DNA of 33,055 bases from Pseudomonadota bacterium (GTDB taxonomy: Bacteria > Desulfobacterota > JAPLJL01). A program made the position numbers and the translations under genes. The notes below the pieces were generated by a model that was given only the letters and a program-made list of their open reading frames with translations, had not been told where the DNA came from and ran no database searches. Positions 13,211 to 31,997 of this stretch are shown here, piece after piece (positions within the stretch are counted from its first letter, which is position 1; every line of letters starts with the position of its first letter). Where the stretch lies: assembly GCA_026388655.1 (NCBI GenBank), contig JAPLJI010000012.1, positions 1 to 33,055 of the forward strand. The letters run 5' to 3'.

Positions 13211-14662
13211 TCAGGATTCCTGATCCTCGCCGGAATCCTTGGGGCCGATCCCGTACTTTTCCAGCTTGTAGCGGAAGGAGCGGAAGTTCAATCCTAAGAG
13301 CTCGGCCGCTTTTTTCTTCACCCCTCCGCTTTTGAGCAGGGCGGCCCGGATCAGTTTCCTCTCGAAGGTTTCCAGGTGGTTCTCGAGGTTGATCCCCTCG
13401 GGGGGAAAGACGACAGGCTCGCTGATTTCCGGGGAGAAATTCTGGCTCAGGTGCGGGTAAATGTCCTCCGGGAGAATCAGATCGTTGGCGGCCAGGGCCG
13501 TCACCCTCTCCACCAGGTTTGCGAGTTCCCGGACATTGCCCGGGAAGGAGTATTCCTTGAGAAGACCCACGCTCTCGGCCGAGAGAAGGGGCACGGGCTT
13601 CTGGGTTTTTTGGGCCAGGATTCCCCGAAAATGTTCCACCAGGATGGGAATGTCCTCCTGGCGCTCCCGGAGGGGGGGGAGTTCAATCCGGATCACGTTC
13701 AAGCGGTAAAAAAGGTCATCGCGGAATTTCCCGGTTTCCACCAGCTCGTCAATATCCCGGTTGGTGGCGGCTAGGATCCGCAGGTCCACCTCGATTTCCT
13801 TGGTTCCCCCCACCCTCCGGATTTTATGTTCCTGGATGGCCCGGAGGAGTTTGACCTGCATGGGGGAAGGGAGCTCGGTGATTTCATCCAGAAAGATCGT
13901 GCCGCCGGTGGCGACCTCGAAAAGCCCGGGTTTATTGCGGATCGCGCCGGTGAAGGCGCCCTTTTCGTGACCGAAAAGTTCGCTCTCGATCAGGGCTTCG
14001 GGGATGGCGCTGCAGTCCACCGGGACGAAGGGGGAGTTCCTCCGGGTTCCGGAAAAGTGGATGGCCCGGGCCACCAGTTCCTTCCCGGTCCCGGACTCGC
14101 CGACAATCAGAATGTTGGACTGGGCGTCCGCGACCTGGCGGATAAGCTCGAAAACCCGGAGCATGGCGGGGGAGTTGCCGATCAGGGTTCCGAAGCCGAA
14201 GCGGGTTTTCAGCTCCCGGCGGAGGAGCAGGTTTTCCCGTTCCAGCTTGAGACGGGAAAGGTTGTTGGCGATCCGGAGCTTGACCTCGTCCACCTGAAAG
14301 GGTTTTTCCAGGTAATCACAGGCGCCGGCCTTCATCGCCTCGACCGCCGATTCGGTGGAGCCGAAGGCGGTAATCACCATCACCTGGGTCCCGGGGGCGA
14401 TTTTCTGGATCTTCCGGGTGACCTCGATGCCGTCCAGGCCGGGGAGTTTCAGGTCGGTGATGATTAGGTCAAAATGAAAACGATTGCAGGATTCGAGGGC
14501 CTCCAGGCCGTTGGCGGCCAGCATCACCTGGTAGCCCTGGCGGGTGAGGAGGATCTCCAGGAACTCCCGCATGGAAGCCTCATCGTCGATAACCAGGATC
14601 AGCGGAGGCGGGAGCTTCAGGAGGTCGGCTTCGATCCCGAACTCGGGCGGTTTAACGGGCAT
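13211..14662 (-). CDS. pilR: Type IV pilus sigma54-dependent response regulator PilR
   Basis: 483 residues in NtrC-family order. The receiver domain has acidic pocket D26/D27, phosphoacceptor D70 and K120. The AAA+ domain has Walker A GESGTGKE (188-195) and the sigma54-contacting GAFTGA loop (235-240). A C-terminal Fis-type helix-turn-helix (KKKAAELLGLNFRSFRYKLEKYGI) binds enhancers. PilR activates pilin transcription with RpoN after phosphorylation by PilS. It overlaps the pilS end by 11 nt, and gene order supports PilR over other NtrC paralogues. No pilA follows it, so its target promoter lies outside the window or differs. Confidence 0.93.
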   Translation of the reverse strand: MPVKPPEFGIEADLLKLPPPLILVIDDEASMREFLEILLTRQGYQVMLAANGLEALESCNRFHFDLIITDLKLPGLDGIEVTRKIQKIAPGTQVMVITAFGSTESAVEAMKAGACDYLEKPFQVDEVKLRIANNLSRLKLERENLLLRRELKTRFGFGTLIGNSPAMLRVFELIRQVADAQSNILIVGESGTGKELVARAIHFSGTRRNSPFVPVDCSAIPEALIESELFGHEKGAFTGAIRNKPGLFEVATGGTIFLDEITELPSPMQVKLLRAIQEHKIRRVGGTKEIEVDLRILAATNRDIDELVETGKFRDDLFYRLNVIRIELPPLRERQEDIPILVEHFRGILAQKTQKPVPLLSAESVGLLKEYSFPGNVRELANLVERVTALAANDLILPEDIYPHLSQNFSPEISEPVVFPPEGINLENHLETFERKLIRAALLKSGGVKKKAAELLGLNFRSFRYKLEKYGIGPKDSGEDQES

Positions 14663-16301
14663 CGTCTTCTCCGGAATAAGGGAAGGAGAGAATAAAAACC
14701 GTGCCCGAGCCGGGCTGGCTCTCGACCTGGACCCGCCCGCGGTGGAGCTCGACGATCCGGTGCACGATCGCCAGTCCGAGCCCGACGCCTTTTTCCTTGG
14801 TGGTGAAAAATGGTTCGAACAGCCGGGCCTGGGTTTCCTCGTTCATGCCCATGCCGGTGTCGCTCAGGCCGATTTCCATCCGGCCGCGAGCGGCTCCGTT
14901 CCGGGTCCAGACCTTCAGGGTTCCGCCCGAGGGCATGGCTTCCCCGGCGTTGATCAGGAGGTTGAGGAAAAGCTGGCGGAGCTGGTTGGGGTCGGCCGAG
15001 ATCGGCCGGGAAGTTTCATAATGTTTTTCGATTTTGATTCCCGGGGGAAAGTCCCGCCCCCGGATGGTAAAATCCACGCATTCATCCAGGATTTGGATCG
15101 GGTCAAGCAGGGAAAAGAGTGGTTTTTCCGGACGCGCGAAACGAAGAAAGTCGGTGACCAGGCGGTTCAATCGCTCAGTTTCCCGGACGATGATGCGCAT
15201 CAGACGCCTTTCCTCATCCGGAAATTCCTGGCGCTCGAGCAGAAGCTGGAGCGGTCCGGAAATGGCCCCCAGGGGATTGCGGATTTCGTGAGCGATGCCG
15301 GCGGCGAGCGTGCCGATCGCGGCCAGTTTTTCCGACCGCCGGATTTCCTTTTCCATTTCCTTGATCCGGGTGATGTCCTGGAAAATCAGGATTTTCCCCA
15401 GGTTCTCGCCCGCTTCGCCCTTCAGGGCGGAAAGGGAAAATCCAAGATAAATCATGGAGCCGTCCGGCTTCGGCAGACTGACTTCCGGGCGGGTGGCTTT
15501 TTCCTGGTCCCGGTCCTCGATTTCCCGGGCGAGGGCGGGGAAAACGTTGCCCAGATTTTTATTGAAGATCTCGGAGGTTTTCCGTCCCAGGGTCTCCTCG
15601 CCCGAATGATTCAGGGATAGGATCCGGCCGGAGGCATCCATGGTTAAAACCCCGCTGCCGATGGATTCCACGATTTTCTTGTGAAAGGCAAGAAGCGAAG
15701 TGAGATCGCCCTGTTTCTTCTCCAGCTCGGCCTGGGTGGTCCGAAGCTGTTCGGAGAGCGAGCTGGAGAGGATGGCTACCGCGAAGTAGGCGGCGATATT
15801 GGCTCCAACGGTGAAAAAATATTCCCGGGCCGGGTTGGCCCGGATCACCCCGCTGAGGTTCAGGATCTGGTAGAACTCGAGATCGGCGAACCCCCCGTAA
15901 AGAATGGCGGAAAGGGACGCGATCAGGAGCGCCCCCCGGCGGTGGAGGAAGATACTGGCGGTGACGATCCCGAAAAGATAGAGAAAGGAAAAGATGGATT
16001 CGGAACCGCCGGTGAAGAGAATCAGGGCGGCGATGAAAAACGGATCCCAGACGATCTGGAAATAAAGGAACAGGGTCTGGTTTGGGGAGGAATGCGGCCG
16101 GGAGATCCAGACCAGGCTGAAAGCGGTGAAGACCAGGGTGATCCCGAGGAGCAGGTAGAGGGGGAAATGGGGGAACTCCCCGGTCTGGGTCAGGACCCAG
16201 CCCCCGACCAGGGAGAAAATCAAGCCCCCGCGGAGAACGATCAACCAGGTATAACGGCGGCGATTTTCCGCGTGAACCAAGCGGTTTTCCCGGTGATTCA
16301 T
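14652..16301 (-). CDS. pilS: Type IV pilus sensor histidine kinase PilS
   Basis: 549 residues. The N-terminal 185 residues hold about six hydrophobic segments, as in PilS. A PAS domain spans about 205-310, followed by the HisKA box AAGIAHEIRNPLG with phospho-acceptor H338. The HATPase domain has N box NLLINAGEAM, G1 DTGMGM, and G2 GVGLGLAIVHRIVELHRG. It phosphorylates PilR, the next gene. In other bacteria PilS reads the pilin level in the membrane. The start ATG 16301 has a weak ribosome site. It follows pilC by 27 nt. Confidence 0.93.
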   Translation of the reverse strand: MNHRENRLVHAENRRRYTWLIVLRGGLIFSLVGGWVLTQTGEFPHFPLYLLLGITLVFTAFSLVWISRPHSSPNQTLFLYFQIVWDPFFIAALILFTGGSESIFSFLYLFGIVTASIFLHRRGALLIASLSAILYGGFADLEFYQILNLSGVIRANPAREYFFTVGANIAAYFAVAILSSSLSEQLRTTQAELEKKQGDLTSLLAFHKKIVESIGSGVLTMDASGRILSLNHSGEETLGRKTSEIFNKNLGNVFPALAREIEDRDQEKATRPEVSLPKPDGSMIYLGFSLSALKGEAGENLGKILIFQDITRIKEMEKEIRRSEKLAAIGTLAAGIAHEIRNPLGAISGPLQLLLERQEFPDEERRLMRIIVRETERLNRLVTDFLRFARPEKPLFSLLDPIQILDECVDFTIRGRDFPPGIKIEKHYETSRPISADPNQLRQLFLNLLINAGEAMPSGGTLKVWTRNGAARGRMEIGLSDTGMGMNEETQARLFEPFFTTKEKGVGLGLAIVHRIVELHRGRVQVESQPGSGTVFILSFPYSGEDDAR

Positions 16302-16328
16302 TTTCGGAACGGGAACGGCCCGGGTTTT

Positions 16329-17543
16329 TTAGCCCACCACCGAAGCGAGCGAGAAGATCGGGAGATACATGGCGATCAGGAATCCGCCGACGACCACGGA
16401 CAGGGCGATCATGATGGCCGGTTCGATCAGGGAGGTTAAACCGTCCACCGCGGCGTCCACTTCCACGTCGTAAAAGTCGGCGATTTTGTTGAGCATAGCG
16501 TCCAGGGCCCCGGTCTGTTCTCCCACCCCGATCATCTGGACCACCATCGAGGGAAAGACGTTGGTGGCCTTGAGGGGCTCGGCGATGGATTTACCTTCGG
16601 AAATGCTGATTTTGGCCTGCTGAATGGCCTTTTCGATGGTGACGTTGCCGGCGGTGCGGGAGCAGATCTCCAGACCTTCCAGGATCGGGACGCCGCTCGA
16701 GATCATCGTCCCCAGGGTGCGGGTGAAGCGAGCCACCGCCGTCTTACGGATAAGATCGCCGAACACCGGCGCCTTCAGGAAAAGGTCGTCGGTTACAGCC
16801 CGGCCCTTGACATTCTTGCGAAGGGCGCGGTAGCCGAAAACGAGGGCGACGATACCTCCGATGACATAAAGGATGTAATGCCGCATAAAATCGCTCATCG
16901 CCATCACCGCCCGGGTCGGGGCGGGGAGGACACCGCCCATGTCGGCGAACATCTTGGAGAAAACCGGGATAACGAAGATCAGGAGGACGAGGACGACCGC
17001 CACCAGGGCGACCAGGACCACCGCCGGGTAAACCATAGCGCCCTTGACCTTCCGCTTCAGGGCTTCGGATTTTTCCATGAAGACCCCGATTCGGTTCAGG
17101 ATGGTGTCCAGGATACCGCCGACTTCGCCGGCGGCGATCAGGCTGACGAAAAGCTTGTCGAAAACCTGGGGATGGCGCTCCAGGGCCTGGGCGAAGGTTG
17201 ACCCTCCTTCCACCGATTCCTTGACATTCATTAGGATGTTTTTAAAGTTCTTGTTCGGGTTCTGGTTGGCGAGGATATCCAGGCATTGGACCAGGGGCAG
17301 GCCGGCGTCGATCATGGTGGCGAACTGGCGGGTGAAGATGACCAGTTCGCGCATGGGAACTCCCTTGGCTCCGCCGAGGAAGGGCAGTTTGAGCTGGAAC
17401 CCGGGCTTTTTCTCCTTGACCTTGAAGGGGACGATCTGCTGGGTGCGCAGCTGCTGGATCAGCAGGCCTTCATTCTGGGCTTCGGTTTCTCCCTTGCGGG
17501 CTTCCCCCGATTTGGTTCTTCCCTCCCACACATATATTGGCAT
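16329..17543 (-). CDS. pilC: Type IV pilus inner-membrane platform protein PilC
   Basis: 404 residues of the T2SF/GspF-PilC family, with two cytoplasmic helical domains each followed by membrane helices. Hallmarks include the N-terminal MPIYVWEGRTKSGEARKG, FTRQFATMIDAGLPL (about 69-83), ESVEGGSTFAQAL, the mirrored ARFTRTLGTMISSGVPILEGL in the second half, and EPAIMIALSVVVGGFLIAMYLPIF at the C-terminus. PilC couples the PilB and PilT motors to pilin insertion and extraction. It lies 11 nt after pilT, in the standard order. Confidence 0.96.
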   Translation of the reverse strand: MPIYVWEGRTKSGEARKGETEAQNEGLLIQQLRTQQIVPFKVKEKKPGFQLKLPFLGGAKGVPMRELVIFTRQFATMIDAGLPLVQCLDILANQNPNKNFKNILMNVKESVEGGSTFAQALERHPQVFDKLFVSLIAAGEVGGILDTILNRIGVFMEKSEALKRKVKGAMVYPAVVLVALVAVVLVLLIFVIPVFSKMFADMGGVLPAPTRAVMAMSDFMRHYILYVIGGIVALVFGYRALRKNVKGRAVTDDLFLKAPVFGDLIRKTAVARFTRTLGTMISSGVPILEGLEICSRTAGNVTIEKAIQQAKISISEGKSIAEPLKATNVFPSMVVQMIGVGEQTGALDAMLNKIADFYDVEVDAAVDGLTSLIEPAIMIALSVVVGGFLIAMYLPIFSLASVVG

Positions 17544-17554
17544 TTTTATCCCCC

Positions 17555-18652
17555 TTATTTGTTTCCCGGACCCCGCCCAGCCTGGGCTACGGAGAGCATG
17601 TTCTTCACCTCTTCCGTGTCCGTGGAATAGCCGATGACATCTTCAAAGGTGATGAGTTTCCGCTGGAACAGGGCGATCAGGGACTGGTTCATGGTCTGCA
17701 TTCCGAACTTGGCCTGCCCGACCTGCATCTGGGAATAGATCTGGTGGATTTTATCCTCCCGGACCAGGTTGCGGATGGCGGGATTGGGAACCAGGATCTC
17801 GAGGGACAAGGCCCGCCCGGCCCCGTTGGCCTTGGGGATCAGGGCCTGGCAGAGGATTCCCTCCAGGACGAAGGAAAGCTGGGCCCGGACCTGGGGCTGT
17901 GCGTAGGGGGGGAACACGTCGATGATCCGGTTGATCGTCTGCACCGCCGAATTGGTGTGCAGGGTGGCGAAGCAGAGATGGCCGGTTTCGGAAATCTGCA
18001 GGGCGGTCTCGATGGTTTCCAGGTCCCGCATTTCCCCGATCAGGACCACATCCGGGTCCTGGCGGAGGATGTAACGGAGGGCGGCCTTGAAACTCTTGGT
18101 GTCGGACTGGACCTCGCGCTGGTTGACGATGCAATTTTTGTGAGGATGGAGATACTCGATCGGATCCTCGATGGTAATGATATGCTCGTGCCGGTCCTGG
18201 TTGATTTTGTCAATAATCGAGGCCAGGGTGGTGGATTTGCCGCAGCCGGTGGGCCCGGTGACCAGGATCAGCCCCCGCGGCTTGGCGGTGATCTCATTCA
18301 GGATCGGGGGAAGCCCCAGCTCCTCGAAGGTCAAAATCCGGAAGGGGATGGAGCGGAAAGCGCCCGCCACCGCGCCCCGCTGGATGAACATGTTGGCCCG
18401 GAAGCGGGAGAGTCCCTTGACCCCGAAGGAAAGGTCGAGCTCGTTTTCTTCCTCAAACCGGTGCTTCTGGGCGTCGGTTAAAATTGAGTAACAGATCTGC
18501 TTGGTTTCGGAGGGGTTGAGCGGCTCGGATTTGAGCGGCACCAGGCTGCCGTCGATCCGGAGCTGGGGAGGGGAACCGGTGGTAATATGGAGGTCGGAGG
18601 CCCCCTTTTCGATCATCAACTTGAGCAACTGGTGGAGATTGGCGGTCGCCAA
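17555..18652 (-). CDS. pilT: Type IV pilus retraction ATPase PilT
   Basis: 365 residues; hexameric secretion ATPase that depolymerises the pilus for twitching and DNA uptake. Motifs: SDLHITTGSPPQLRIDG in the N-terminal domain, Walker A GPTGCGKST (133-141), Asp box TIEDPIEYLH, Walker B DVVLIGEMRD, and the PilT-specific C-terminal AIRNLVRE. The start is TTG at 18652: AAGGAG stands 6 nt before it, overlapping the pilB stop codon, and the protein then begins MATANLHQLL as in relatives. Immediately downstream of pilB, so translation is probably coupled. Confidence 0.96.
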   Translation of the reverse strand: MATANLHQLLKLMIEKGASDLHITTGSPPQLRIDGSLVPLKSEPLNPSETKQICYSILTDAQKHRFEEENELDLSFGVKGLSRFRANMFIQRGAVAGAFRSIPFRILTFEELGLPPILNEITAKPRGLILVTGPTGCGKSTTLASIIDKINQDRHEHIITIEDPIEYLHPHKNCIVNQREVQSDTKSFKAALRYILRQDPDVVLIGEMRDLETIETALQISETGHLCFATLHTNSAVQTINRIIDVFPPYAQPQVRAQLSFVLEGILCQALIPKANGAGRALSLEILVPNPAIRNLVREDKIHQIYSQMQVGQAKFGMQTMNQSLIALFQRKLITFEDVIGYSTDTEEVKNMLSVAQAGRGPGNK

Positions 18653-18661
18653 GATTTCTCC

Positions 18662-20353
<1,692 letters not shown>

Positions 20354-20586: not shown

Positions 20587-20928
20587 ATGGAACTTGAAAT
20601 CACTTCCGAAAAGTGCATCGCCTGCCGGGCCTGCGAATTTGCCTGTTCCTATCACATGGATGGAGATTTTTCGAGCATCGGGTCCAGTATCATGATCCAC
20701 CGGGACGAGCGAAAGGACTACTTCGGACCGATCCTGAAGCGGTCCAAGGACATCCTGCTCGGCCGTCCGGAAAGGATAGAGATTCTCAAGCCCGGCCAGT
20801 CCACCACCGGGGGGGCGGCCGCTAACAAGCCGATCCTGATGCGGGGGCCCTGCGACCTCTGCCCCGATGAGAAGGTGCCCTTCTGCGTGGCGATCTGCCC
20901 AACCGGCTGTCTGCGGAAAAAGGAGTAA
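20587..20928 (+). CDS. Ferredoxin-like protein with two [4Fe-4S] sites, AOR partner
   Basis: 113 residues with two four-cysteine groups: C10-x2-C13-x2-C16-x3-C20 at the N-terminus (KCIACRACEFAC) and C-x2-C-x7-C-x3-C near the end (PCDLCPDEKVPFCVAICPTGC, interrupted here only by the spacing). The roughly 60-residue insert between them is typical of polyferredoxin-like partners encoded beside aldehyde:ferredoxin oxidoreductases and DMSO-reductase-type enzymes. It probably carries electrons to or from the AOR-like protein 4 nt downstream. Cytoplasmic: no signal peptide or TAT motif. A strong GGGAGGGG ribosome site precedes ATG 20587. Confidence 0.85.
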   Translation: MELEITSEKCIACRACEFACSYHMDGDFSSIGSSIMIHRDERKDYFGPILKRSKDILLGRPERIEILKPGQSTTGGAAANKPILMRGPCDLCPDEKVPFCVAICPTGCLRKKE

Positions 20929-20932
20929 GACC

Positions 20933-22441
20933 ATGGCGCTGGAAAAGGTATTTAACAACCGGATTCTCCTGGCGGATTTAACCACGGGGAAGTGCGAGGA
21001 AAGGGAACTGGGCGACAAGCTGGCCCGCGAGCAGTTGGGCGGGGCGGCCCTGAACCTCGAGCTTCTCCGCCGCTTCCCGGAGGGCGAACCCCTGGTGATC
21101 GGGACCGGACTCCTGACTTCGACTTTTTGCCCGGGGGCGGGCGTCGGGGTGGTGACGGCCAAAAGCCCCCGCTCCGGCCTGGTGGTCCACCATCCCTTCA
21201 TCGGGATGATTGGAATCGAGCTCAAGCTTTCGGGTTTTGATTTTATCGTGGTCCGCGGCCGGTCGGAAAAACCGGTCCGGCTCTGGCTGCACGACGAACT
21301 CGCCGAGGTCTCCCCGGCGGGGGAGGTGAAAGAGCTGGGCACCAACCAGGTGACCGGCCGGATCCGCGATGAATACGGGGACATGAACATCCACGCTTTT
21401 CAGGTGGGTCCGGCGGGGGCGGCGGGGAGTCCCCTGGCCATGATTTCCGAAAGCTGCTTCGGCGGCTATGACCGGGCCGGCCTGGGCCTGGCCCTGGCGG
21501 AAAAAGGTCTTTACGCCCTGGTGGTGAGAGGCCTGGGGAACCTGGAAGTGGCCGACGGGTTTTTCCCGGAATCCGCGAAACTCATGCAGGAAACGGCCCA
21601 GAGCCTGAAAGGAAAAACCGGGATCAAAGAGATTTTACGCCTCTGGGCCAAGGAAGATTCCTTTCTTCCCGCCCTGGAAAAGGTAACCCACCGCCATTCC
21701 GCCTGTTACAGCTGTCCCTTCCCCTGCCGGACCTTCGGATTCTTACGGGAAGACCCGGCCCGGAAGCTGGAAACCGATGCGTCCAATCCCGGCTGCTTAT
21801 TGATTGACCCGCAGGGGGTTCTGGCCCTTTCTTTCCTGGGGAATGACTATCCCCACGTTTACGAGCACTGCACCCAGCTGGGGGTGGACCCGGCGGCGGT
21901 GGGACTGATCCTGAAAGCCGAAGGGATAGGGGATAAGGAAGCCGCGGACAAGCGGATCGAAGCGCTGGTCAAGGAGAAAAAGGATCTGATCAACAGCAAC
22001 CAGAATAATTTCCACGGGGTTACCCCCTGGCCGGACGGCGGAGACCTTTCCGCGGCCCTGGTTCAGGCGGCCGGGGTGTTTTCCAACGGGATCCCGCCCG
22101 CGGTGCTTCCTCTTTCCACTCCCCCGTTCTCCCTCCCCTCCGATCCGGTGGAGAAGGCGGCCCTGGTCCTCGAGCGGACGGCCCTGGGCCTGATCCTGGG
22201 GGTCTGTCCGCTTCTGCTCCTCTCCACCCCGGTGATAACCCCCGCCCGGCTGGCCACCCTGGTCAAGCTGGCCACCGAGTGGGACGGGATCGGCGAGGAA
22301 GAGTTGAAAGCGAAGGCCAAATCCCTGATCGGGCAAACCCTGAAACTGGCGGCTCCCCGGGGAGCGATTTCGGAGGGTTTGAAACCCGCGGGGTTTGACG
22401 CGGCCTGGGCCGGATTGAAAAAGCGCTACGTTGAAGGCTAA
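20933..22441 (+). CDS. Aldehyde:ferredoxin oxidoreductase-like protein (short form)
   Basis: 502 residues, about 100 fewer than typical AOR. AOR enzymes use a tungsten (or molybdenum) bis-pyranopterin and one [4Fe-4S] cluster to oxidise aldehydes or reduce acids. Seen: N-terminal RILLADLTTGK and GGAALN; VGPAGAAGSPLAMI followed by YDRAGLG; cluster ligands C258-x2-C261-x3-C265 with the fourth, C425, in ILGVC; and the pterin-contacting LGVD motif (residues 316-319). The missing length is mostly between the cluster motif and C425, so substrate-pocket residues may be absent. AGGAG precedes ATG 20933, favouring it over earlier in-frame starts. It forms an operon with the ferredoxin upstream and the amidotransferase-like gene downstream (11-nt overlap). 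Substrate unknown. Confidence 0.85.
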   Translation: MALEKVFNNRILLADLTTGKCEERELGDKLAREQLGGAALNLELLRRFPEGEPLVIGTGLLTSTFCPGAGVGVVTAKSPRSGLVVHHPFIGMIGIELKLSGFDFIVVRGRSEKPVRLWLHDELAEVSPAGEVKELGTNQVTGRIRDEYGDMNIHAFQVGPAGAAGSPLAMISESCFGGYDRAGLGLALAEKGLYALVVRGLGNLEVADGFFPESAKLMQETAQSLKGKTGIKEILRLWAKEDSFLPALEKVTHRHSACYSCPFPCRTFGFLREDPARKLETDASNPGCLLIDPQGVLALSFLGNDYPHVYEHCTQLGVDPAAVGLILKAEGIGDKEAADKRIEALVKEKKDLINSNQNNFHGVTPWPDGGDLSAALVQAAGVFSNGIPPAVLPLSTPPFSLPSDPVEKAALVLERTALGLILGVCPLLLLSTPVITPARLATLVKLATEWDGIGEEELKAKAKSLIGQTLKLAAPRGAISEGLKPAGFDAAWAGLKKRYVEG

Positions 22442-23627
22442 ACAGGATAATATTTCCGGCCGTCACTCCGCCCAGGTGGGCATCTACATGGGCGAAGGGA
22501 CCGCCCATTCCTGGACCTGGTGGGCGGAGTTTTTCGAAAAGATCGGTTTTTATCATCAGCAATATCTGGACGAGGAAAATTTCGCCTCCCGCCTCGGGGG
22601 AGTGGATTTCCTCTGCCTCTCGGGGGGCGACACCTTTGCCATCGCCCAGGGCCTGGGCCAGGCCGGGGCGCGGGCCCTCGGGGAGTTCTTCTCCGGAGAT
22701 AAGGTTTATCTGGGGTCCTGCGCCGGGGCTTATCTTCCCCTCCATTCCTCTCAGGAACCTCTTCACCGGTTCAATTTTCTTTCGATCCCGGTGGCGAACA
22801 TTGTTCCCGATCCTCCCCCGGGTCTGGAATTCTCACCCCGGACGATGATCCCTTACGGAAACCGCTACCTGGTCCACCCGGTCCGGGGCGAGGTGGTGCT
22901 CCGGCCGAGGATCTCCTACCCGGAGCCGACCGTGGTCGCTCCCCTTTTCGGGGGGCCTCCCTTTGACCTGGGCGGGGACGCGGACGGGTTCCGGTCGCGG
23001 GCCCTTTACCAGGATTTCACGCCCCGGACCAGTTTCCCGGCCGGGCCGGAGCTGGCCCGAAGGGTGGTCCAGGGCAAGGAAGCCGTCATCGAGGCCCGGA
23101 TCGGACCAAGCACGCTGTTCCTGCTCGGTCCCCATCTTGAACATCCCCGGTTTCCTTCCGCCAATCAATTTTTATTCAGATTGCTTCAGCCTTTTTTTAA
23201 CCGCCTTCCGGAAACGGTGCCCGCCGGGCCCGGGCCGGAGGAATCTTCCCCCGCCTTGCTGAGAGAGATCAAAAAGGAATTATCCCGTTCCCGCTTTACG
23301 GTTCAAAGCTTGACCCAGCTTTCCTTGAGCTTCGAGATCGGGCGGAAGCTTTACGAGCCGGAGAAAATCGCCGAGCTGCTCGAGTTTGCCTGGAAGCGCA
23401 TCCGGAAATTCGAGCCGGGAAGCGGGCTCCCGGTCGCGGCGGGGGAAACCCTGCGGGCCCAGGCGGTCCGGCTCCGGGAGAGCCTGGAGGATTTCCGGAC
23501 CGCGGTCAGGGGGGGAGAAGAAGCGGCCGGGATAATGTTAAAATCCCTTCGGGCGGCCAAACGATTCCTGGCGGGTTTTCTCCCGCTTTACCACCGCTGG
23601 GGCTGCTTAGAGGAAGCTAGAAGTTGA
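22431..23627 (+). CDS. Class I glutamine amidotransferase-like (BPL_N type) protein with extra C-terminal domain
   Basis: About 398 residues. The first 260 form a GATase1-like fold: VGIYMGEGTAHSWTWW at the start, FLCLSGGDTFAI, then the nucleophile elbow LGSCAGAYLP with C97. This pattern is that of BPL_N proteins, whose reaction is largely unknown. The last 130 residues are helical, charged and unfamiliar. The start is uncertain: TTG 22431 overlaps the AOR stop by 11 nt but has no ribosome site; GTG 22476 is an alternative that keeps the whole fold. Tight coupling to the AOR gene suggests a role in maturation or in metabolism of the AOR product; this is inference. Confidence 0.75.
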   Translation: MKAKQDNISGRHSAQVGIYMGEGTAHSWTWWAEFFEKIGFYHQQYLDEENFASRLGGVDFLCLSGGDTFAIAQGLGQAGARALGEFFSGDKVYLGSCAGAYLPLHSSQEPLHRFNFLSIPVANIVPDPPPGLEFSPRTMIPYGNRYLVHPVRGEVVLRPRISYPEPTVVAPLFGGPPFDLGGDADGFRSRALYQDFTPRTSFPAGPELARRVVQGKEAVIEARIGPSTLFLLGPHLEHPRFPSANQFLFRLLQPFFNRLPETVPAGPGPEESSPALLREIKKELSRSRFTVQSLTQLSLSFEIGRKLYEPEKIAELLEFAWKRIRKFEPGSGLPVAAGETLRAQAVRLRESLEDFRTAVRGGEEAAGIMLKSLRAAKRFLAGFLPLYHRWGCLEEARS

Positions 23628-23701: not shown

Positions 23702-24700
23702 GTGCAAAAGCTGATTAATAAACAGGTTTTATTCGGAGAGCGGAATCGAGGCTGGGGTTTCCGGATTATCCTTTCCATCCTTTTAGTTTTTATTTTGGGA
23801 TTGATTTACCTTCCGGATCAGGCCCGGGCCGAGGCCAGCTACGCCAAGGAATTCAAAATGCGCTGCATCCACTGCCACGTGGATAATGATTACCCCGGGG
23901 GCAGCTTCTACGAGGCGGAGAACAGCTATAAATGGATCTTTTTCTACGTCGCCACCGGGATCGCCGGGATTTTCTTTCTCACCGGCCTGGTTTCCTGGTT
24001 CCTGATCTGGCGGAAAGGAAAAAAGTCGCACGTCGTGGAGGAATACCAGCCCCGGACGATCCGCCGCTTTTTGATGGGCATTCTCCAACTGGATCTCTCC
24101 CGGATCTCGAAGCTCCGCTGGGTGAATTACCTCCTGCTCTCCGGTTCTTTCCTGACCCTGATCCTGCTCCTGATCCTGACCTACGGCTTGGCCCTCGGGC
24201 TCGGGACCCGCACCTTCACCCTGCCCGCCCCGGCCGGGCGGTTGATCGACCTGGGCCTGGACCTGCTGGGCTTGGCGATCCTCTCCGGAACCATCCTCGG
24301 ATTTCTCCGCCGCCTCCCCCCCCTGGCGAACCAGTATGTTTCCGCGGCGGTGGAGGACCTGACCAGCCTGGCTTTCATTTTCGTCCTGGTGCTGACCGGG
24401 TTCATCCTGGAGTCCTTCCGGATCGCGGCCCTGCCCAGCCACCCCGACCAACTCTATTCCTTCGTCGGGGCCGGCCTGGCCTGGGTCCTCCGGCACGCTC
24501 CCCTGCCCTGGGCGGTCTGGCATTTTTACTTCTGGAACATCCACATGCTCCTGGCCTTGGTTTTTATCGCCTACATCCCCTGGAGCGGGTTTTTCCATAT
24601 CCTGACCTGCCCGGTGACTCAGACCACTTCCCGGAAGAAGGAAGAGCGAATCCGTTTGGAGGCTTATGGAAAAGGAAGAACTGAGCCTGGAAAAGGTTAA
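23702..24700 (+). CDS. Membrane protein with haem c site and DsrM/NarI-like cytochrome b helices
   Basis: 332 residues. A first hydrophobic helix (about 20-38) is followed by a periplasmic haem c site, C55-I-H-C58-H59. About five further membrane helices follow (78-103, 141-167, 180-203, 216-237, 272-300). The last carries WHFYFWNIHMLLALVFIAYIP with H274 and H281, and H299 nearby, like the b-haem helices of DsrM, HdrE and NarI, though fewer His are seen than the four NarI ligands. Such proteins exchange electrons with menaquinone. The start is GTG 23702, with a weak ribosome site. It overlaps the Rieske gene by 35 nt, so it belongs to that operon. NarI/DsrM assignment is by pattern, not certain. 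Confidence 0.75.
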   Translation: MQKLINKQVLFGERNRGWGFRIILSILLVFILGLIYLPDQARAEASYAKEFKMRCIHCHVDNDYPGGSFYEAENSYKWIFFYVATGIAGIFFLTGLVSWFLIWRKGKKSHVVEEYQPRTIRRFLMGILQLDLSRISKLRWVNYLLLSGSFLTLILLLILTYGLALGLGTRTFTLPAPAGRLIDLGLDLLGLAILSGTILGFLRRLPPLANQYVSAAVEDLTSLAFIFVLVLTGFILESFRIAALPSHPDQLYSFVGAGLAWVLRHAPLPWAVWHFYFWNIHMLLALVFIAYIPWSGFFHILTCPVTQTTSRKKEERIRLEAYGKGRTEPGKG

Positions 24701-25190
24701 ATATACCCGGAGGCGGTTTTTCATCCTGGGCGCCACCGCAGTGGCCGGGGTGGCCCTGGCCGGGATCGTCGGGGGCGGTCTGATCGCTTTTTTCTTCCCG
24801 CCCAAGCGCTTCCGGAAAAAGATCGGGGGCTGGCAGAAAGTAAAGCCGGCGAGCGAGTGCCCGGAAGGGATGGCGGTGACCTCGAGCTACTTCGGGATCC
24901 CGGTTTTTATCCTGCGGGAGGGCGGAAAGGTAAAGGCCTTTTCCGCCGTCTGCCCGCATCTGGGCTGCATCGTGAAGTGGGATCCGGAGCAGAAGGTATT
25001 TCCCTGCCCCTGTCACGATTCCTTCTTCACCTCCCAGGGCCTGGTGCAAAAAGGCCCGGCCCGGCCCTACAACCTCCTGCCCTTTGAAGCCAAGGAGGAG
25101 GAGGGGATGGTCCTGGTCAGCCTGCCGGCGCCGGAAAAACTCAAGCCTTATCCCAGCTGGTTCCGGTTCGCGATGCAATACGGCGGATAA
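24666..25190 (+). CDS. Rieske [2Fe-2S] protein of a cytochrome bc/b6-type complex
   Basis: 174 residues. A twin-arginine-like RRRFFILG (15-22) precedes the single membrane anchor (about 20-44). The Rieske fold binds its cluster through C96, H98, C114 and H117 (CPHLGC and CPCHDSFF), with C101 and C116 placed for the usual disulphide. It would take the first electron of quinol at the Qo site and hand it to a c-type haem. Its gene precedes the cytochrome b6- and subunit IV-like genes, the petC-petB-petD order of Heliobacteria. A 151-nt gap full of short word repeats separates it from the cytochrome gene. Confidence 0.94.
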   Translation: MEKEELSLEKVKYTRRRFFILGATAVAGVALAGIVGGGLIAFFFPPKRFRKKIGGWQKVKPASECPEGMAVTSSYFGIPVFILREGGKVKAFSAVCPHLGCIVKWDPEQKVFPCPCHDSFFTSQGLVQKGPARPYNLLPFEAKEEEGMVLVSLPAPEKLKPYPSWFRFAMQYGG

Positions 25191-25341: not shown

Positions 25342-26100
25342 ATGAGGAAAGCGATTCAATATATTAAAGACCTGCTGAAAAGTTTCTCCCAGGCCCTGGA
25401 TACCCCGGGAGGAATCACCCGCTGGATTAACAATACCTGGCTGGACCTCAAGGAGACGGGCCTCAACTGGCTGGAGGAGCGTTTCCGGCTCCGGAAGCCG
25501 ATCGAAAAAATCCTGGATAAACCCGTTTCCGGCTTCGAGCGCAAGTGGCGCCACTGCTTCGGGGGGATTACCCTGACCTTGATCGGTCTCCAGCTCGCCA
25601 CCGGGGTTTTCCTTTCCTTTTATTATATCCCGTCCGTAGATCAGGCCTTCGAGTCCATCCAGATGATCACCGACGAGGTGGCCTTCGGCTGGCTGGTCCG
25701 CGGGATTCATCACTGGTCGGCATACCTGATCGTGATCACCATGCTCATCCATCTGCTCAAGGTTTTTATCACCGGCTCCTACCGCCCGCCCCGGGAATTC
25801 ACCTGGGTCAGCGGGGTTTTGCTGCTCCTGATCGTATTCGGTTTCCTGGCCACGGGCTATCTGCTCACCTGGTCCCAGCAGGGGTATTGGGCCTCCCGGG
25901 TGGCTATGGGTGTGGCCGGCGAGGTCCCGGCGGTGGGGTCGACAATCCTCCTTTTCGTCCAGGGCGGCTACGTGATCAAGCAGGCGGCGCTGACCCATTT
26001 CTTCACCGCGCATGTATTTCTGCTCCCGGTCGCTGTTATTGTTCTCCTGGGCGTGCATTTTGCCCTGATCCGGAGGCTCGGAATCCAGAAACCGTTATAA
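25342..26100 (+). CDS. Cytochrome b6-type subunit (with haem c_i cysteine)
   Basis: 252 residues, four membrane helices, matching the N-terminal half of cytochrome b. Haem b ligands: H123 and H137 in helix B (14 apart), H224 and H239 in helix D (15 apart, the spacing of b6 rather than mitochondrial b). The segment HCFGGITLTL places C72 where b6 has Cys35, which covalently holds haem c_i at the Qi side; GIQKPL after helix D matches the b6 end GISGPL. Compared with b6 it has some 35 extra N-terminal residues, amphipathic and charged. It forms the quinone-reactive core with the Rieske protein and the subunit IV-like protein. ATG 25342 lacks a clear ribosome site. Confidence 0.94.
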   Translation: MRKAIQYIKDLLKSFSQALDTPGGITRWINNTWLDLKETGLNWLEERFRLRKPIEKILDKPVSGFERKWRHCFGGITLTLIGLQLATGVFLSFYYIPSVDQAFESIQMITDEVAFGWLVRGIHHWSAYLIVITMLIHLLKVFITGSYRPPREFTWVSGVLLLLIVFGFLATGYLLTWSQQGYWASRVAMGVAGEVPAVGSTILLFVQGGYVIKQAALTHFFTAHVFLLPVAVIVLLGVHFALIRRLGIQKPL

Positions 26101-26300: not shown

Positions 26301-26741
26301 ATGGAACCGGAAGCCCAAAAACCCGAGATCCCGCAGATAGAGAAACCCCCGGTGGAAGCCCCGGGAGACGAGCTCACCTTTTTTCCCAAGGTGGTCCTGG
26401 GGGAGTTCCTGGCACTGCTGCTCACGGTTGGGGTGGTGGTGGCGCTCGCGGTCCTGATTCCGGTCGGGTACGAGGAAAAGGTCAATACCCTGATCACCCC
26501 GGCGGGGGTGAAGGCGGAATGGTACTTCCTCTGGACCTACCAGCTCATGAAGCTCGTCCCCGTCCTGGTGGGGATGGGGATCCTCGCTCTGATCGTAGTC
26601 CTGATTTTTATCCTGCCCTGGCTGGACCGGAAACCGGGGCGGAAGATCGGGGAACGGATCTGGGTGATCGCGATTGGATTAATGATCCTGGCCGGCATCG
26701 GCGTCCTGACCTTCTGGGCGCTTTTGCCGGGAGGAGAATAA
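26301..26741 (+). CDS. Cytochrome b subunit IV-like protein (PetD-like C-terminal half)
   Basis: 146 residues with about three hydrophobic helices (50-72, 92-112 and 120-142), as in subunit IV of b6f. The Qo-site signature PEWY appears as AEWYFLWTYQLMK (near residues 73-85): the Glu that accepts quinol protons is present, but the leading Pro is Ala. The preceding ITPAGVKAEWYF resembles the family's TPxxIxPEWYF. An N-terminal proline- and glutamate-rich extension of about 25 residues is unusual. Lies after the b6-type gene beyond a repeat element, so the operon is interrupted by 200 nt, yet pairing with the b6-type subunit is obligatory for function. Confidence 0.9.
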   Translation: MEPEAQKPEIPQIEKPPVEAPGDELTFFPKVVLGEFLALLLTVGVVVALAVLIPVGYEEKVNTLITPAGVKAEWYFLWTYQLMKLVPVLVGMGILALIVVLIFILPWLDRKPGRKIGERIWVIAIGLMILAGIGVLTFWALLPGGE

Positions 26742-26742
26742 T

Positions 26743-26868
26743 AAAATCCAAATGTCAAAATCCAAAGTTCAAAATAATTTCCAAATGATAAAATCCGAGT
26801 CTCAATATAACCTGAGCGGAGGTTGTCATCCTGAGCGGAGCGAAGGATCTGAAAACTTTGGCAAGGTT
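26743..26868. repeat. Repeat family C and B copies before the cytochrome c-CCG gene
   Basis: AAAATCCAAATGTCAAAATC and related words (26743-26790) are followed by a family B unit, GTCATCCTGAGCGGAGCGAA (from 26824). An open frame runs through both into the next gene and would add 39 residues containing the repeat-derived HPERSEGS; these are not believed to be translated. Confidence 0.75.
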
Positions 26869-28674
26869 ATGAAGTTGATTTTGAAAAGAAGATATTTTTC
26901 CATCTTCTTGATTCTTCTCATCTTTACTTCCACGCTTTTCGCGGCGGAGGAGCCAAAACCCAAAACCGGGCCCGAGCTTTACCAGAAATTCTGCGGCGCC
27001 TGCCACGGCGAGAGGGGCAGGACCTACCAGCCCAACATCGGGGTCAAGCAGGCCGGGAGCGAGGTGATTCCCTCCCTGGATACCGAGTCTTTCCGGAGGG
27101 CCCTGACCACCGATGAGTTCAAGGATATTTTTGACCGCAAGAAAATCATCGAGACGATTCGGAACGGCTCCGAGGTCAAGGGGACCGAATCCACCACCTC
27201 GATGCCGGCCTTCAAGGAGAAACTCACCCCGGCGGAGGTTGATCTTATCCTCCAGTACCTGGCCAAACTTTCCGGCCAGCGCCCGACCCGCTATTCCGCG
27301 GGCCGGCTCGCCTTCCTGATCGGGATCTGGATCTTTCTCGGCGGGGCGATCGCCGGGGCCTATATTTTAAGCCGGCCGGATTACCCGAATTCCCCCCTGA
27401 TCCCGATCTCGAACCTGGAAACCCGCCAGCTCCTGGAGCCGAATGCCTGCACCCGCTGCGGGGAATGTATCAAGTGGTGCCCGGTCTTTGCCATTGACAG
27501 CGAGGAGAGGCTGACTCCGCGGGAGAAGTGCACCCGTTTCCGAAAACTCGTCCAGGAACAGCAGGGGCCCCTGGCCAGCTGGCTGGGGATCAACCCGGTG
27601 CCGAAGAGCCGGGTGGAGGAGTTCCACAAATTTCTGCTCGAGTGCTCCACCTGCGGGCAGTGCCACATCGTCTGCCCGGCCGCGATCGACACGGTGGACC
27701 TCTGGGAGAACATCCGCCGGTCTTTCGTGGATGCGGGTCTGCTCCTGCTCCCCAACCAACAGCCCCTGATCGCCTCGGTCAAATCCTACGATAACCCCTG
27801 GCAGCAACCGCGTTCCTCCCGGGGCAAGTGGGCCAGCCGGGCCAAGCGGGAGAAGCGGATCGCCGCGGAGCCCAAGAACCTGGCCAAGGAGAAGGCGGAG
27901 GTTCTTTATTTCGTGGGTTGCACCGCTTCCTACGATGTAAATGTCAAAGAAGTGGCGATCAACACCACCAGGGTTTTAAACAAGGCCGGGGTGGATTTCG
28001 GGATTCTGGGGAACGAGGAGCGCTGCTGCGGCTCGGTCCTTCTCCGGATGGGTGATTACGAGTTCGAGCGGCTCGCCGGGCAGAACATCGAAACCTTCAA
28101 TAAGCTCGGGATCAAGACCCTGATTACCTCCTGTGCGGGCTGCTACAAGACGATCAAGCAGGATTATCCCCGGGTGGGGAAGCTTAATTTCGAGGTTTTA
28201 CACATGACTGAATTTGTCATGAGATTAATTAAAGAAGGGAAGCTCAAGCTGGAGAAGCCGGTTAATCTAAAGGTCACCTACCACGACCCCTGCCACCTGG
28301 GCCGGGCCAACCAACTCTTCGACGTGCCCCGGGAGGTCTTGAAATCCATCCCCGGGATCGAGTTCACGGAGATCGAGCGCTTCGGCGAGTATTCCCGCTG
28401 CTGCGGGGCGGGGGGAGGCCTGAAGGCCGGCTACCGGGAGGTGCAGGAGGAGATGGCCCGGACGCGGGTGAAGGACGCGATCAACACCGGGGCCACCGAG
28501 TTCGTGACCGCCTGCCCCTTCTGCTACCAGGCGCTCCTGACCGGCATCCAGGGCCTGGGCGCGCCCCTGAACATGCGGGACATCAACGAGCTGATCATCA
28601 TGTCCCTGGGCGACGAGCCGGGCGAGAAGTCCGCCGCCAAGCCCGAAAAAGAAGAGCCCGAAAAACCCGCCTAG
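26869..28674 (+). CDS. Fusion: secreted cytochrome c - TM helix - 2[4Fe-4S] ferredoxin - two CCG (HdrD-like) domains
   Basis: 601 residues from ATG 26869, chosen because the chain then starts with a clean signal sequence (MKLILKRRYF, then a hydrophobic core to A25) and the earlier codons are repeat sequence. Order: monohaem cytochrome c with C42-G-A-C45-H46 and likely axial M112; membrane helix about 147-167; ferredoxin domain with C194/C197/C200/C204 and C259/C262/C265/C269; CCG domain 1 with C351, C386-C387, C422 and C425; CCG domain 2 with C475, C511-C512, C549 and C552. CCG domains bind noncubane [4Fe-4S] clusters in HdrB/HdrD and recur in DsrK, GlpC and EMO. Topology predicts a periplasmic haem and a cytoplasmic FeS half. 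It stands where a petA-like cytochrome c would be in the operon. Confidence 0.9.
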   Translation: MKLILKRRYFSIFLILLIFTSTLFAAEEPKPKTGPELYQKFCGACHGERGRTYQPNIGVKQAGSEVIPSLDTESFRRALTTDEFKDIFDRKKIIETIRNGSEVKGTESTTSMPAFKEKLTPAEVDLILQYLAKLSGQRPTRYSAGRLAFLIGIWIFLGGAIAGAYILSRPDYPNSPLIPISNLETRQLLEPNACTRCGECIKWCPVFAIDSEERLTPREKCTRFRKLVQEQQGPLASWLGINPVPKSRVEEFHKFLLECSTCGQCHIVCPAAIDTVDLWENIRRSFVDAGLLLLPNQQPLIASVKSYDNPWQQPRSSRGKWASRAKREKRIAAEPKNLAKEKAEVLYFVGCTASYDVNVKEVAINTTRVLNKAGVDFGILGNEERCCGSVLLRMGDYEFERLAGQNIETFNKLGIKTLITSCAGCYKTIKQDYPRVGKLNFEVLHMTEFVMRLIKEGKLKLEKPVNLKVTYHDPCHLGRANQLFDVPREVLKSIPGIEFTEIERFGEYSRCCGAGGGLKAGYREVQEEMARTRVKDAINTGATEFVTACPFCYQALLTGIQGLGAPLNMRDINELIIMSLGDEPGEKSAAKPEKEEPEKPA

Positions 28675-29050: not shown

Positions 29051-29257
29051 ATGGGTAAAACCACGGTTGTGATTGACGATAAGCTTCTCGAAAAAGCGGT
29101 GGCCTCCATCAACGCCAAAACCAAGCGGGAGGCGATCGAGGCCGGTCTGCGGGAGCTGATCCGCAAGAAAAATGTCGCCCTGCTTCGGGAAGAGTTTGGA
29201 ACCTATGAAATCGATCTGGACCTGAAAAAGCTGGAGAAGCAGAGGTCAGATGAATAA
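29051..29257 (+). CDS. VapB-family antitoxin
   Basis: 68 residues. The N-terminal half (KTTVVIDDKLLEKAVASINAKTKREAIEAGLREL split across strand, helix, helix) is a ribbon-helix-helix-type DNA-binding domain of the VapB/DUF2191 kind. The charged C-terminal tail would wrap the toxin. It has a strong ribosome site and its own promoter, and overlaps the toxin start by 8 nt. It neutralises the PIN toxin encoded next and probably represses the operon. Confidence 0.88.
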   Translation: MGKTTVVIDDKLLEKAVASINAKTKREAIEAGLRELIRKKNVALLREEFGTYEIDLDLKKLEKQRSDE

Positions 29258-29687
29258 ATGGGTGCTGGTTGACACCTCGGTCTGGATTTTTCTCCTGAGA
29301 AAATCACCCCCGGAATCATTGGTGGCCGAGATCGAACCCTATCTGCAGGAAGATCGGATAGCGGTTTCTGATCTCATCAAGCTTGAGCTTCTAGGCGGAA
29401 TAACTAACGAGATGGATTTCCTGAGATTGAAAACCCGCCTGGATGATCTCCACCAGGTGGAGATATCAAAAACGGTCTGGGAGGAAGCAATAACCCTGGC
29501 CTTCCGGTTAAGAGGCAAAGGCTTGACCGTGCCCAACGCCGATATCATTATCGCGAGCGCCGCGATCTCCGCCGGGGCCTTGCTGCTTCACGCCGACCGG
29601 CATTTTGACCTGATCGCAAAACATTCCGGCCTGAAGGTGAAAAACCTCTCCTCGAAAATTCCCGCTGCCCGCCATCTCGTAGATTAA
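29250..29687 (+). CDS. VapC-family PIN-domain toxin ribonuclease
   Basis: 145 residues, a single PIN domain. Acidic metal-binding residues are all in place: D8 (VLVDTSVWI), E46 (LIKLELLGG), D98 (VPNADIIIA) and D116 (HADRHFD). VapC toxins cleave RNA, often tRNA or rRNA, when freed from VapB. ATG 29250 lies within the antitoxin coding end, the usual coupling. It appears intact, in contrast to the broken AbiEii-type toxin near the window start. Confidence 0.92.
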   Translation: MNKWVLVDTSVWIFLLRKSPPESLVAEIEPYLQEDRIAVSDLIKLELLGGITNEMDFLRLKTRLDDLHQVEISKTVWEEAITLAFRLRGKGLTVPNADIIIASAAISAGALLLHADRHFDLIAKHSGLKVKNLSSKIPAARHLVD

Positions 29688-30203: not shown

Positions 30204-31292
30204 TTGAATCCCAAGGAAATCGCTGAATTAAAGACCGAGCTGCAGAGTCTCGGGGTGAGGCTCGAAGCGGATTCGCCCCGGCGTGAGGGAGGAGCGGGGC
30301 CGGCCGAGGGGATTACCCTGATTATCGAGGGCATTCCCGCCACGGTCCCGACCATCCCCCGGCTGGCGAAAAAATCGCCCTATTCCCTCAAAGAAAAAAA
30401 GGGGAGGTTCGAGCTTTTTCAGAATGAAATTTTCCTGGGCGAGGTCCGGTTGGGCGGGTCGGCCAGGTTTTACGATGAACTGGATTCCCAGGGCCGACCT
30501 CTCCGGCTTTTCGCCCTTCTCCACGGGGAAGACTGTCTGGCCACCACGGTCAACCAGGTCTGCGCCTATTACGCGCAGGGAAAAGGCTGTCTTTTCTGTG
30601 GGATCGGCATTTCTTTAGACCGGGGCAAAACCGTTGCGTTCAAGGATCCGGAAACCCTGGCCCGGGCGGCCCGGAAAGCCAGGGAACTAGACGGGGTAAA
30701 ACACGTGACGCTGACCACCGGCACCCAATCCACGCCCGACCGGGGGATCGTGGACCTCGCCCGGGCGGCCCGGACGATCAAGGAGGCCACGGAACTCCCC
30801 ATTCATGTCCAAGCCCTGCCTCCCGATGACCTGACCTGGTTAAAACACCTGTCGGATAACGGGGTGGATACGATTGGCATCCATGTCGAAACCTTTTCCC
30901 CGAAAGTGCTAAAAAAGATTTCACCTTCCAAGAGCGAGATCGGCTACTCCCGGTTCATCGAGGCCTGGAAGCGGGCGGTGGATGTCTTCGGGCGGAACCA
31001 GGTCTCGAGCTACCTGATTGTGGGCCTGGGGGAAGAGGACGCGGAGGTGATCAAGGGCGCCGGCCTGCTCGCCGAACTCGGTGTTTATCCTTTTATCGTT
31101 CCCTTCCGACCGATTCCGGGGACACCGATGGAGAACCATTCCCCTCCCGCCCCGAAACGGATGAAGAAGATTTACCGGGAGGCGAAAACCATTCTGAGGC
31201 GGAACAATCTTTCCGCCCGGGAGGTCAAAGCCGGCTGTGTCCGCTGCGGGGCCTGCTCGGCCCTGCCGATTTATGAGACCATTCCCGATTAA
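30204..31292 (+). CDS. Radical SAM protein, MSMEG_0568-like family
   Basis: 362 residues. The cluster motif is not the classical CxxxCxxC; the chain has C111-LATTVNQV-C120-AYYAQGKG-C129-LF-C132, matching the LATTVxQxC...CxFC pattern of the MSMEG_0568/Sll0785 family. A C-terminal GCVRCGACSALP (C345, C348, C351) is another family hallmark and may hold a second cluster. The barrel follows with HVTLTTGTQ and GIHVETF. Family members are found in the Nit1C cluster with a nitrilase and a GNAT, linked to nitrogen starvation and cyanide use; their reaction is unknown. TTG 30204 is the likely start (GAGG 8 nt before). The GNAT partner follows after a repeat; no nitrilase is present. Confidence 0.85.
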   Translation: MNPKEIAELKTELQSLGVRLEADSPRREGGAGPAEGITLIIEGIPATVPTIPRLAKKSPYSLKEKKGRFELFQNEIFLGEVRLGGSARFYDELDSQGRPLRLFALLHGEDCLATTVNQVCAYYAQGKGCLFCGIGISLDRGKTVAFKDPETLARAARKARELDGVKHVTLTTGTQSTPDRGIVDLARAARTIKEATELPIHVQALPPDDLTWLKHLSDNGVDTIGIHVETFSPKVLKKISPSKSEIGYSRFIEAWKRAVDVFGRNQVSSYLIVGLGEEDAEVIKGAGLLAELGVYPFIVPFRPIPGTPMENHSPPAPKRMKKIYREAKTILRRNNLSAREVKAGCVRCGACSALPIYETIPD

Positions 31293-31559: not shown

Positions 31560-31997
31560 ATGAAACCGTCACGCATCGAGATCCATCCGGCCCGCGACCA
31601 AGATGAACTAAAGGAGGCCTATGCTCTCCGGGAGGAAGTTTTCGTCCGCGAGCTCGGGATGTTTGCAAAGACCGACCGCGACGATAACGATAACCGGGCC
31701 ATCCATCTTATCGCCCTGGACCAGCGAAAGGTGGCGGGAACGGTCCGGATTTACCGGGAGGAGGGGAACTGGATGGGTGGCCGCCTGGCGGTGGATAAAC
31801 ATTACCGGAAAGGGGTGGGCCGGAAACTCGTCAAGGCCGCCGAGGAAGAGGTGAAAAAACAGGGCGGGAACTCCATGCAGGCCCTGATCCAGTCCCAGAA
31901 CGCCGCCTTTTTTGCGCGGTTGGGCTGGCGCCGGGTCGGATCCTCGATTGAATATCTGGGCCGCACGCATTATCGGATGGAAAAGGTTTTCGGATAG
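31560..31997 (+). CDS. GNAT acetyltransferase, MSMEG_0567/Sll0786-like
   Basis: 145 residues, one GNAT domain. The acetyl-CoA loop lies in HYRKGVGRKLVKAA (R/Q-x-x-G-x-G/A type), preceded by GRLAVD; NAAFFARLGWRRVG and THYRMEK close the fold. The combination LREEVFVRELGMFAKTDRDD, then AGTVRIY, then GNWMGGRLAV closely fits the nitrogen-starvation acetyltransferases found with MSMEG_0568-type radical SAM genes, and that partner is the previous gene, 268 nt upstream. Substrate unknown. ATG 31560 has no good ribosome site, which leaves some doubt over the exact start. Confidence 0.85.
   Translation: MKPSRIEIHPARDQDELKEAYALREEVFVRELGMFAKTDRDDNDNRAIHLIALDQRKVAGTVRIYREEGNWMGGRLAVDKHYRKGVGRKLVKAAEEEVKKQGGNSMQALIQSQNAAFFARLGWRRVGSSIEYLGRTHYRMEKVFG

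Follow-up and report, generated by a model that had tools for sequence, protein, structure and literature searches.

Rieske/cytochrome b complexes are usually regarded as quinol:cytochrome c machines without a cytoplasmic role. An operon in the window, the 33,055-nucleotide stretch of DNA analysed here, shares with the b6f and bc complexes a Rieske protein, a cytochrome b split into cytochrome b6 and subunit IV, a haem-cn cysteine and a cytochrome c anchored by one helix. Unlike in those complexes, cytochrome f/c1 is absent and a CBB3-like c domain is fused to an Fe-S/CCG half, while a NarI-like extra subunit is present and the Qo motif of the window's genus reads AEWY. EtfD of Mycobacterium smegmatis (9ojn; PMC13083937) and HdrDE share with the locus a NarI-like membrane part, 2x[4Fe-4S] and two CCG domains; here, in contrast, two genes encode NarI and CCG, the haem-b His has disappeared, the CCG ligands are Hdr-type, a cytochrome c and Rieske complex is added, and Etf genes are absent from the operon. 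The TmcABCD, HmcA-F and DsrMKJOP complexes of sulfate reducers likewise combine a CCG protein with a NarI-like subunit and a periplasmic cytochrome c, whereas the present locus has a Rieske/cytochrome b module, falls below the TmcB, DsrK and HmcF cut-offs and belongs to a genome with no DsrA match.

The nearest literature cases are two. One is Kuenenia, where a Rieske/cytochrome b complex has already been found combined with an Fe-S oxidoreductase in the cytoplasm (PMC12954380); these NAD(P)-linked complexes share the Rieske/cytochrome b core and the cytoplasmic Fe-S redox subunit, but here Hdr-type CCG replaces FAD/NAD(P) and the cytoplasmic part is covalently joined to a periplasmic cytochrome c. 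In HotSeep-1 (AMM42179-42180; PMC10553843), a single protein that by its description likewise holds haem c and CCG is partnered by HdrA and not by a Rieske/cytochrome b complex. A description of the fusion together with the b6f-type combination was not found in the open-access literature. Our preferred reading, which we put at a probability of about 0.5, is that the fusion serves a b6f-type Rieske/cytochrome b complex as a chimeric subunit and gives it an Hdr-type redox port on the cytoplasmic side. This suggests respiration through a complex in direct electron exchange with the cytoplasm as well.

The fusion chain

The chain and its parts are as follows.
26869..28674, + strand: chimeric subunit, 601 aa, signal peptide - cytochrome c - TM helix - 2x[4Fe-4S] - CCG - CCG
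26869..26946, + strand: Sec-type signal peptide, residues 1-26, LFA-AEE; the twin-Arg varies among homologues
26992..27006, + strand: haem c site CGACH, residues 42-46, invariant in 9 fusions
27202..27204, + strand: Met112 (SMPAF), candidate distal haem ligand
27298..27369, + strand: single transmembrane helix, residues 144-167, after an invariant RPxRYxxxR
27448..27678, + strand: 2x[4Fe-4S] ferredoxin domain, Cys194-269, all eight Cys invariant
27919..28143, + strand: CCG domain 1, Cys351, 386, 387, 422 and 425, Hdr-type
28291..28524, + strand: CCG domain 2, Cys475, 511, 512, 549 and 552

The frame is uninterrupted and places all 601 residues in one chain; its longest version begins at 26752, and a signal peptide heads only the start at 26869. 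Residues 31-134 match Cytochrome_CBB3 (5e-9) and Cytochrom_C (5e-7) of Pfam, residues 193-274 match Fer4_17 (3e-7), and CCG is matched in two stretches (6e-35). Frame, Pfam and cysteines thus agree with an earlier note on this DNA, which had read from the letters a single protein joining a cytochrome c, a membrane helix, 2[4Fe-4S] and two complete CCG domains. That note had also allowed for a frameshift or assembly join at about 27290-27420, and for homologues in which the cytochrome c is always a separate gene. Both can be set aside: the identical in-frame junction is found in 8 other genomes, and the fusion is kept in all nine, with relatives lacking the cytochrome c half being more distant. 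An assembly or frameshift artefact is thereby ruled out.

A scan of bacterial and archaeal genomes, together with 395 genomes sampled in depth within the phylum, recovered the cytochrome c-Fer4-CCG-CCG chain beyond the window. The nine genomes with the full-length fusion (window + 8) span three class-level lineages of one phylum, at 50-91% identity. Two belong to the window's genus and come from unrelated metagenomes (89-91% identity); family f31 contributes two of the remaining fusions and family f8 four (50-52% identity). The three fusion families belong to three class-level groups. Within the class of family f8, 4 of the 23 genomes carry the fusion, and no full-length fusion was found on plasmids. 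Relatives without the cytochrome c half are 50-64% identical over the Fe-S/CCG part.

Across the fusions, the CXXCH and every Fe-S cysteine are invariant, as is the helix led by RPxRYxxxR. Attachment of haem involves Cys42/Cys45 and His46; CGQCH at 262-266, considered as a second haem site, is an Fe-S motif. As for the distal ligand, Met is present at position 112 in five fusions, but the four f8 proteins have Gln there (SQPAF/SQPTF), and because of this replacement Met ligation does not appear to be a rule of the family; of the haem site proposed in the note, CGACH stands and the SMPAF methionine does not hold family-wide. Cleavage of the signal at the AxA-like site LFA-AEE is plausible. Tat export of the whole chain was considered and rejected, the twin Arg of the window's signal being absent in L021, L022 and L082.

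Beyond the signal helix (2-21), hydropathy and AlphaFold2 agree on one membrane helix at 144-167, as the note had it. The topology it proposed, with haem outside and FeS/CCG inside, fares less well on charge: the conserved RPxRYxxxR flanks the helix on the side predicted to face outward (charge +3 vs 0 in the window protein), and this bias favours the opposite orientation. Haem is assigned to the outside and FeS/CCG to the inside from the biochemistry by which haem c is attached and Fe-S clusters are assembled. The AlphaFold2 model, built on 18 homologues, is confident for the Fe-S/CCG half and poor, with block means of 35-65, over the cytochrome c half. It might then be argued that the signal is retained as an anchor, or that the fusion is non-functional, with the halves acting independently or the cytochrome c being vestigial. 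The variable distal Met would fit this, as would the faster divergence of cytochrome c and linker (48-51% identity, 29-39% for the helix) than of CCG (59-62%); but CXXCH, helix and junction are kept over nine genomes and three class-level lineages that form one clade in the NarI tree, and we consider such an explanation very unlikely.

The Fe-S half has the composition of HdrDE and EtfD, 2x[4Fe-4S] (cysteines 194/197/200/204 and 259/262/265/269) with two complete CCG motifs (C-X34-CC-X34-CXXC and C-X35-CC-X36-CXXC), and its best PDB fold is EtfD 9ojn (E 2e-18), followed by LutA and HdrB. The ligands, on the other hand, set it apart from EtfD. CCG1 retains its CC and has Gly at the position of EtfD His583, so that the Thr539/His583 pattern of EtfD is replaced by Cys387 and Gly424; membership of the EtfD type is ruled out on these ligands. 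Because the ligands are Hdr-type, substrate chemistry at the CCG clusters is possible. The fusion scores below the NCBIfam cut-offs (score/cut-off in bits) of TmcB (92/735), DsrK (91/400), HmcF (65/750) and TfrB (217/385).

The operon and the likely haem partner across the membrane

Since one helix cannot carry electrons across the membrane, the note had called for a haem-bearing partner, either b6-type or a DsrM/NarI-like subunit. Both are encoded directly upstream, in an operon that ends with the fusion and runs in the order NarI-like (23702), Rieske (24666), cytochrome b6 (25342) and subunit IV (26301).
23702..24700, + strand: NarI/EtfD-like membrane subunit, one CXXCH (CIHCH, 23864-23878)
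24666..25190, + strand: Rieske protein, CPHLGC...CPCH, RRRFF N-terminus (PF00355, 1e-14)
25342..26100, + strand: cytochrome b6, four haem-b His and haem-cn Cys
26301..26741, + strand: PetD-like C-terminal half of cytochrome b, or subunit IV, Qo motif AEWY (PF00032, 1e-12)

Cytochrome b6 and PetD adjoin the fusion in 9/9 loci, Rieske and the NarI-like gene wherever the contig reaches (8 and 7 loci, respectively). The motifs are equally constant: CPHLGC...CPCH occurs in all 8 loci including a Rieske gene, the four haem-b His of cytochrome b6 in 9/9 and the haem-cn Cys in 8/8 covering that region. The Qo motif is AEWY in the window's genus (3 genomes) and PEWY in the other six loci. Among the operon proteins, no Pfam match to cytochrome f or c1 was found, the c domain being the CBB3-like one fused to CCG, and there is no FAD/NAD(P)-binding cytoplasmic subunit.

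The question of the bridge across the membrane turns on the NarI-like subunit. EtfD holds its haem b by His78 and His241 (PMC13083937), positions that were set in the present family through a Chloroflexota NarI-CCG protein (L063) aligned to EtfD. The window subunit has Tyr at the first and keeps His at the second. The same Tyr is present in 7/7 subunits of the fusion type, and Phe in one single-haem type B subunit (the types are described below); the His78 equivalent is kept in every other NarI-like relative long enough to score, and the His241 equivalent in all scored, in a list that has some loci entered twice. The fusion type thus lacks the two-His pair (EtfD 78 and 241), and because of the loss of the His78 equivalent an EtfD-type haem b is unlikely in its NarI-like subunit. 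An additional His is found seven residues before the last-helix His at the position of NarI His187, and might serve the new haem c; the subunit may also, with its His at the EtfD His241 position, bind haem in another way. Cytochrome b6, the sole subunit in which the transmembrane haem ligands are clearly complete, is for that reason the likelier bridge, and our initial idea of the NarI-like subunit as the transmembrane wire is weakened accordingly by the lost His.

That idea nevertheless underlies an alternative with parallel wires. A NarI-like subunit with b haem(s) would link the CCG half to menaquinone and, via its CXXCH, to the fused cytochrome c, as in HdrDE, TmcBC and EtfD, and Rieske/b6 would be a co-assembled quinol oxidase using the same cytochrome c. 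The NarI-like gene stands in the window operon and, in nearly every locus whose contig is long enough, next to the CCG protein, EtfD 9ojn is the best PDB fold of both proteins (a profile match for the NarI-like subunit), and two last-helix His are kept; the Tyr in place of one of the two EtfD haem-b ligands in every fusion-type locus scored speaks against it, and on balance we hold it to be somewhat unlikely.

A separate link of Rieske/cytochrome b to a CCG protein occurs in L063 (5330-9176), an Anaerolineae operon in which a cytochrome b with an N-terminal CXXCH, subunit IV and Rieske precede a single NarI-FeS-CCG chain that is EtfD-like and keeps the His.

The wider cluster and its modules

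The operon is part of a wider conserved cluster. Its 5' part holds a ferredoxin, an AFOR-like protein, an amidotransferase-like protein, the membrane module, the NarI-like subunit and the CCG protein, after which come an NMT1-type ABC transporter, the radical SAM protein MSMEG_0568, the acetyltransferase MSMEG_0567 and an AIR-synthase-like protein. Four of these genes in the window are listed here.
20867..22441, + strand: AFOR-like protein, AFOR_N only, upstream neighbour in most clusters
22431..23627, + strand: glutamine-amidotransferase-like protein, GSCAGA, weak BPL_N/S51, constant neighbour
30204..31292, + strand: MSMEG_0568-family radical SAM protein (TIGR04043, 379 bits), downstream cluster part
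31560..31997, + strand: MSMEG_0567-family N-acetyltransferase, downstream cluster part

Relatives without the cytochrome c occupy the same cluster with other membrane modules. Type A has a 6-haem cytochrome, a cytochrome b561 and a NarI with up to 7 haem sites, and DsrA is present in 11/11 type A genomes tested. Type B has an Fe-S protein, NrfD, a molybdopterin protein, a 5-haem cytochrome and a NarI with one haem site. In type C the module is absent and NarI lacks haem c, and type D is that of the window, Rieske/b6/subunit IV with the fusion. The haem-c number of NarI (0, 1 or 4-7) tracks the module. Because the cytochrome c-less relatives share the cluster but carry other membrane modules, the complex is modular, with a NarI and CCG core kept and the membrane/periplasm module swapped. 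The NarI tree unites type D in one clade (100/98), which supports a fusion that arose once. The CCG tree places the sole type B row among those of type D, without rejecting D as a clade of its own (p-AU 0.136). L109 (G077) is a sister cluster with Fe-S/NrfD/molybdopterin/5-haem in Rieske's place, and its NarI-like haem-b His is also lost.

The neighbours have features of their own. The amidotransferase-like protein (22431-23627) has a GxCAGA motif with sub-threshold Pfam BPL_N/Peptidase_S51 and is kept in nearly all clusters. The AFOR-like protein of the window retains CxxCxxxC; in the relatives with the motif region found (among L024, L136, L137, L138, L113 and L150) two Cys are changed to Thr (CFNTPxPT), and its sequence features suggest that the enzyme is degenerate or has been repurposed. 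In relatives L024, L109 and L137, the MSMEG genes are accompanied by AIR-synthase-like and NMT1-type ABC transporter genes. The aerobic nit1C cyanide-assimilation cluster has SAM-superfamily, acetyltransferase and AIR-synthase parts (PMC11049912); the MSMEG_0568/0567 and AIR-synthase set matches these by name only and stands here in anaerobes, beside an electron-transfer complex, and no obvious nitrilase was found in the mapped loci. A PIN-domain (VapC-like) gene lies between the fusion and the radical SAM gene (29250-29687) and is present in L021 too. Elsewhere in the window are a type IV pilus/T2SS-type block on the - strand (13211-20353; T2SSE ATPase, T2SSF, PilS-like kinase, sigma-54 response regulator) and, at the left end (84-2570), an Eco57I-like restriction-modification methylase followed by a DUF2971 protein.

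Proposed electron flow and its meaning

We return to the preferred reading, the chimeric subunit of a b6f-type complex. Several lines point to it: the conserved gene order and motifs, the occurrence in three class-level lineages, the Hdr-type cysteines and the loss of the NarI-like His. First of all, the cytochrome c half would replace cytochrome f/c1 as acceptor of the Rieske cluster's electrons outside the membrane, with the membrane helix acting as a mere tether. Second, the 2x[4Fe-4S]/CCG half would dock on cytochrome b6 from the cytoplasmic side, close to haems bN/cn, and exchange electrons with a cytoplasmic couple, possibly thiol/disulfide. Third, and as the weakest step of the scheme, the most likely direction would take electrons from a cytoplasmic donor through CCG, [4Fe-4S] and cn/bN to menaquinone, and from menaquinol through Rieske and cytochrome c to a periplasmic carrier, with proton translocation at Qo. 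Finally, the NarI-like subunit would be a structural or outer-side haem-c partner and not the wire that it appears to be in its His-keeping relatives. The oxidative direction is favoured because outward electron flow along the membrane potential into menaquinone and a c haem is what such parts are ordinarily used for. Set against this reading are the His241 equivalent kept in the NarI-like subunit, the low AlphaFold confidence for the cytochrome c half, the opposite charge bias, the variable distal ligand, and the lack of COX1 and DsrA matches and of an evident terminal reductase.

The last point concerns the acceptor of outward electrons in the window genome, which is 94% complete. It has no match to PF00115 (COX1) or TIGR02064 (DsrA), and a heme-copper oxidase or sulfate reduction was rejected as its electron sink on these grounds. 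Its six molybdopterin matches include no evident terminal reductase, and none of those with surroundings read looks like a terminal reductase of the periplasm. The operon holds the sole PF13442-type cytochrome c and the sole PF00033 cytochrome b found in the genome, which also encodes a cytochrome c assembly protein (PF01578).

The same parts could be run as a quinone-based bifurcation. Of the two electrons of menaquinol at Qo, the first would go to Rieske and on to the fused cytochrome c, and the second via bP, bN and cn to Fe-S/CCG and a low-potential cytoplasmic acceptor; one polypeptide would then hold both outlets, haem c outside and Hdr-type Fe-S inside, with the b6 haems as the sole transmembrane path. 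The layout parallels the proposal for Kuenenia, with FeS/FAD/NAD(P) subunits on the inner side (PMC12954380), and ferredoxin- and AFOR-like genes are in the cluster. These genes, however, also accompany clusters without the Rieske module, a flavin or NAD(P) subunit is absent from the operon, and a high-potential acceptor to drive the reaction was not found in the window genome; we regard a bifurcating complex as decidedly doubtful.

If the reading as a b6f-type complex with a cytoplasmic port is true, a single protein would allow a test of whether the Q cycle is coupled directly to redox chemistry in the cytoplasm. In addition, nature has exchanged the modules within one gene cluster, and a haem ligand is missing where the Rieske module is present, which offers a ready-made comparative experiment.
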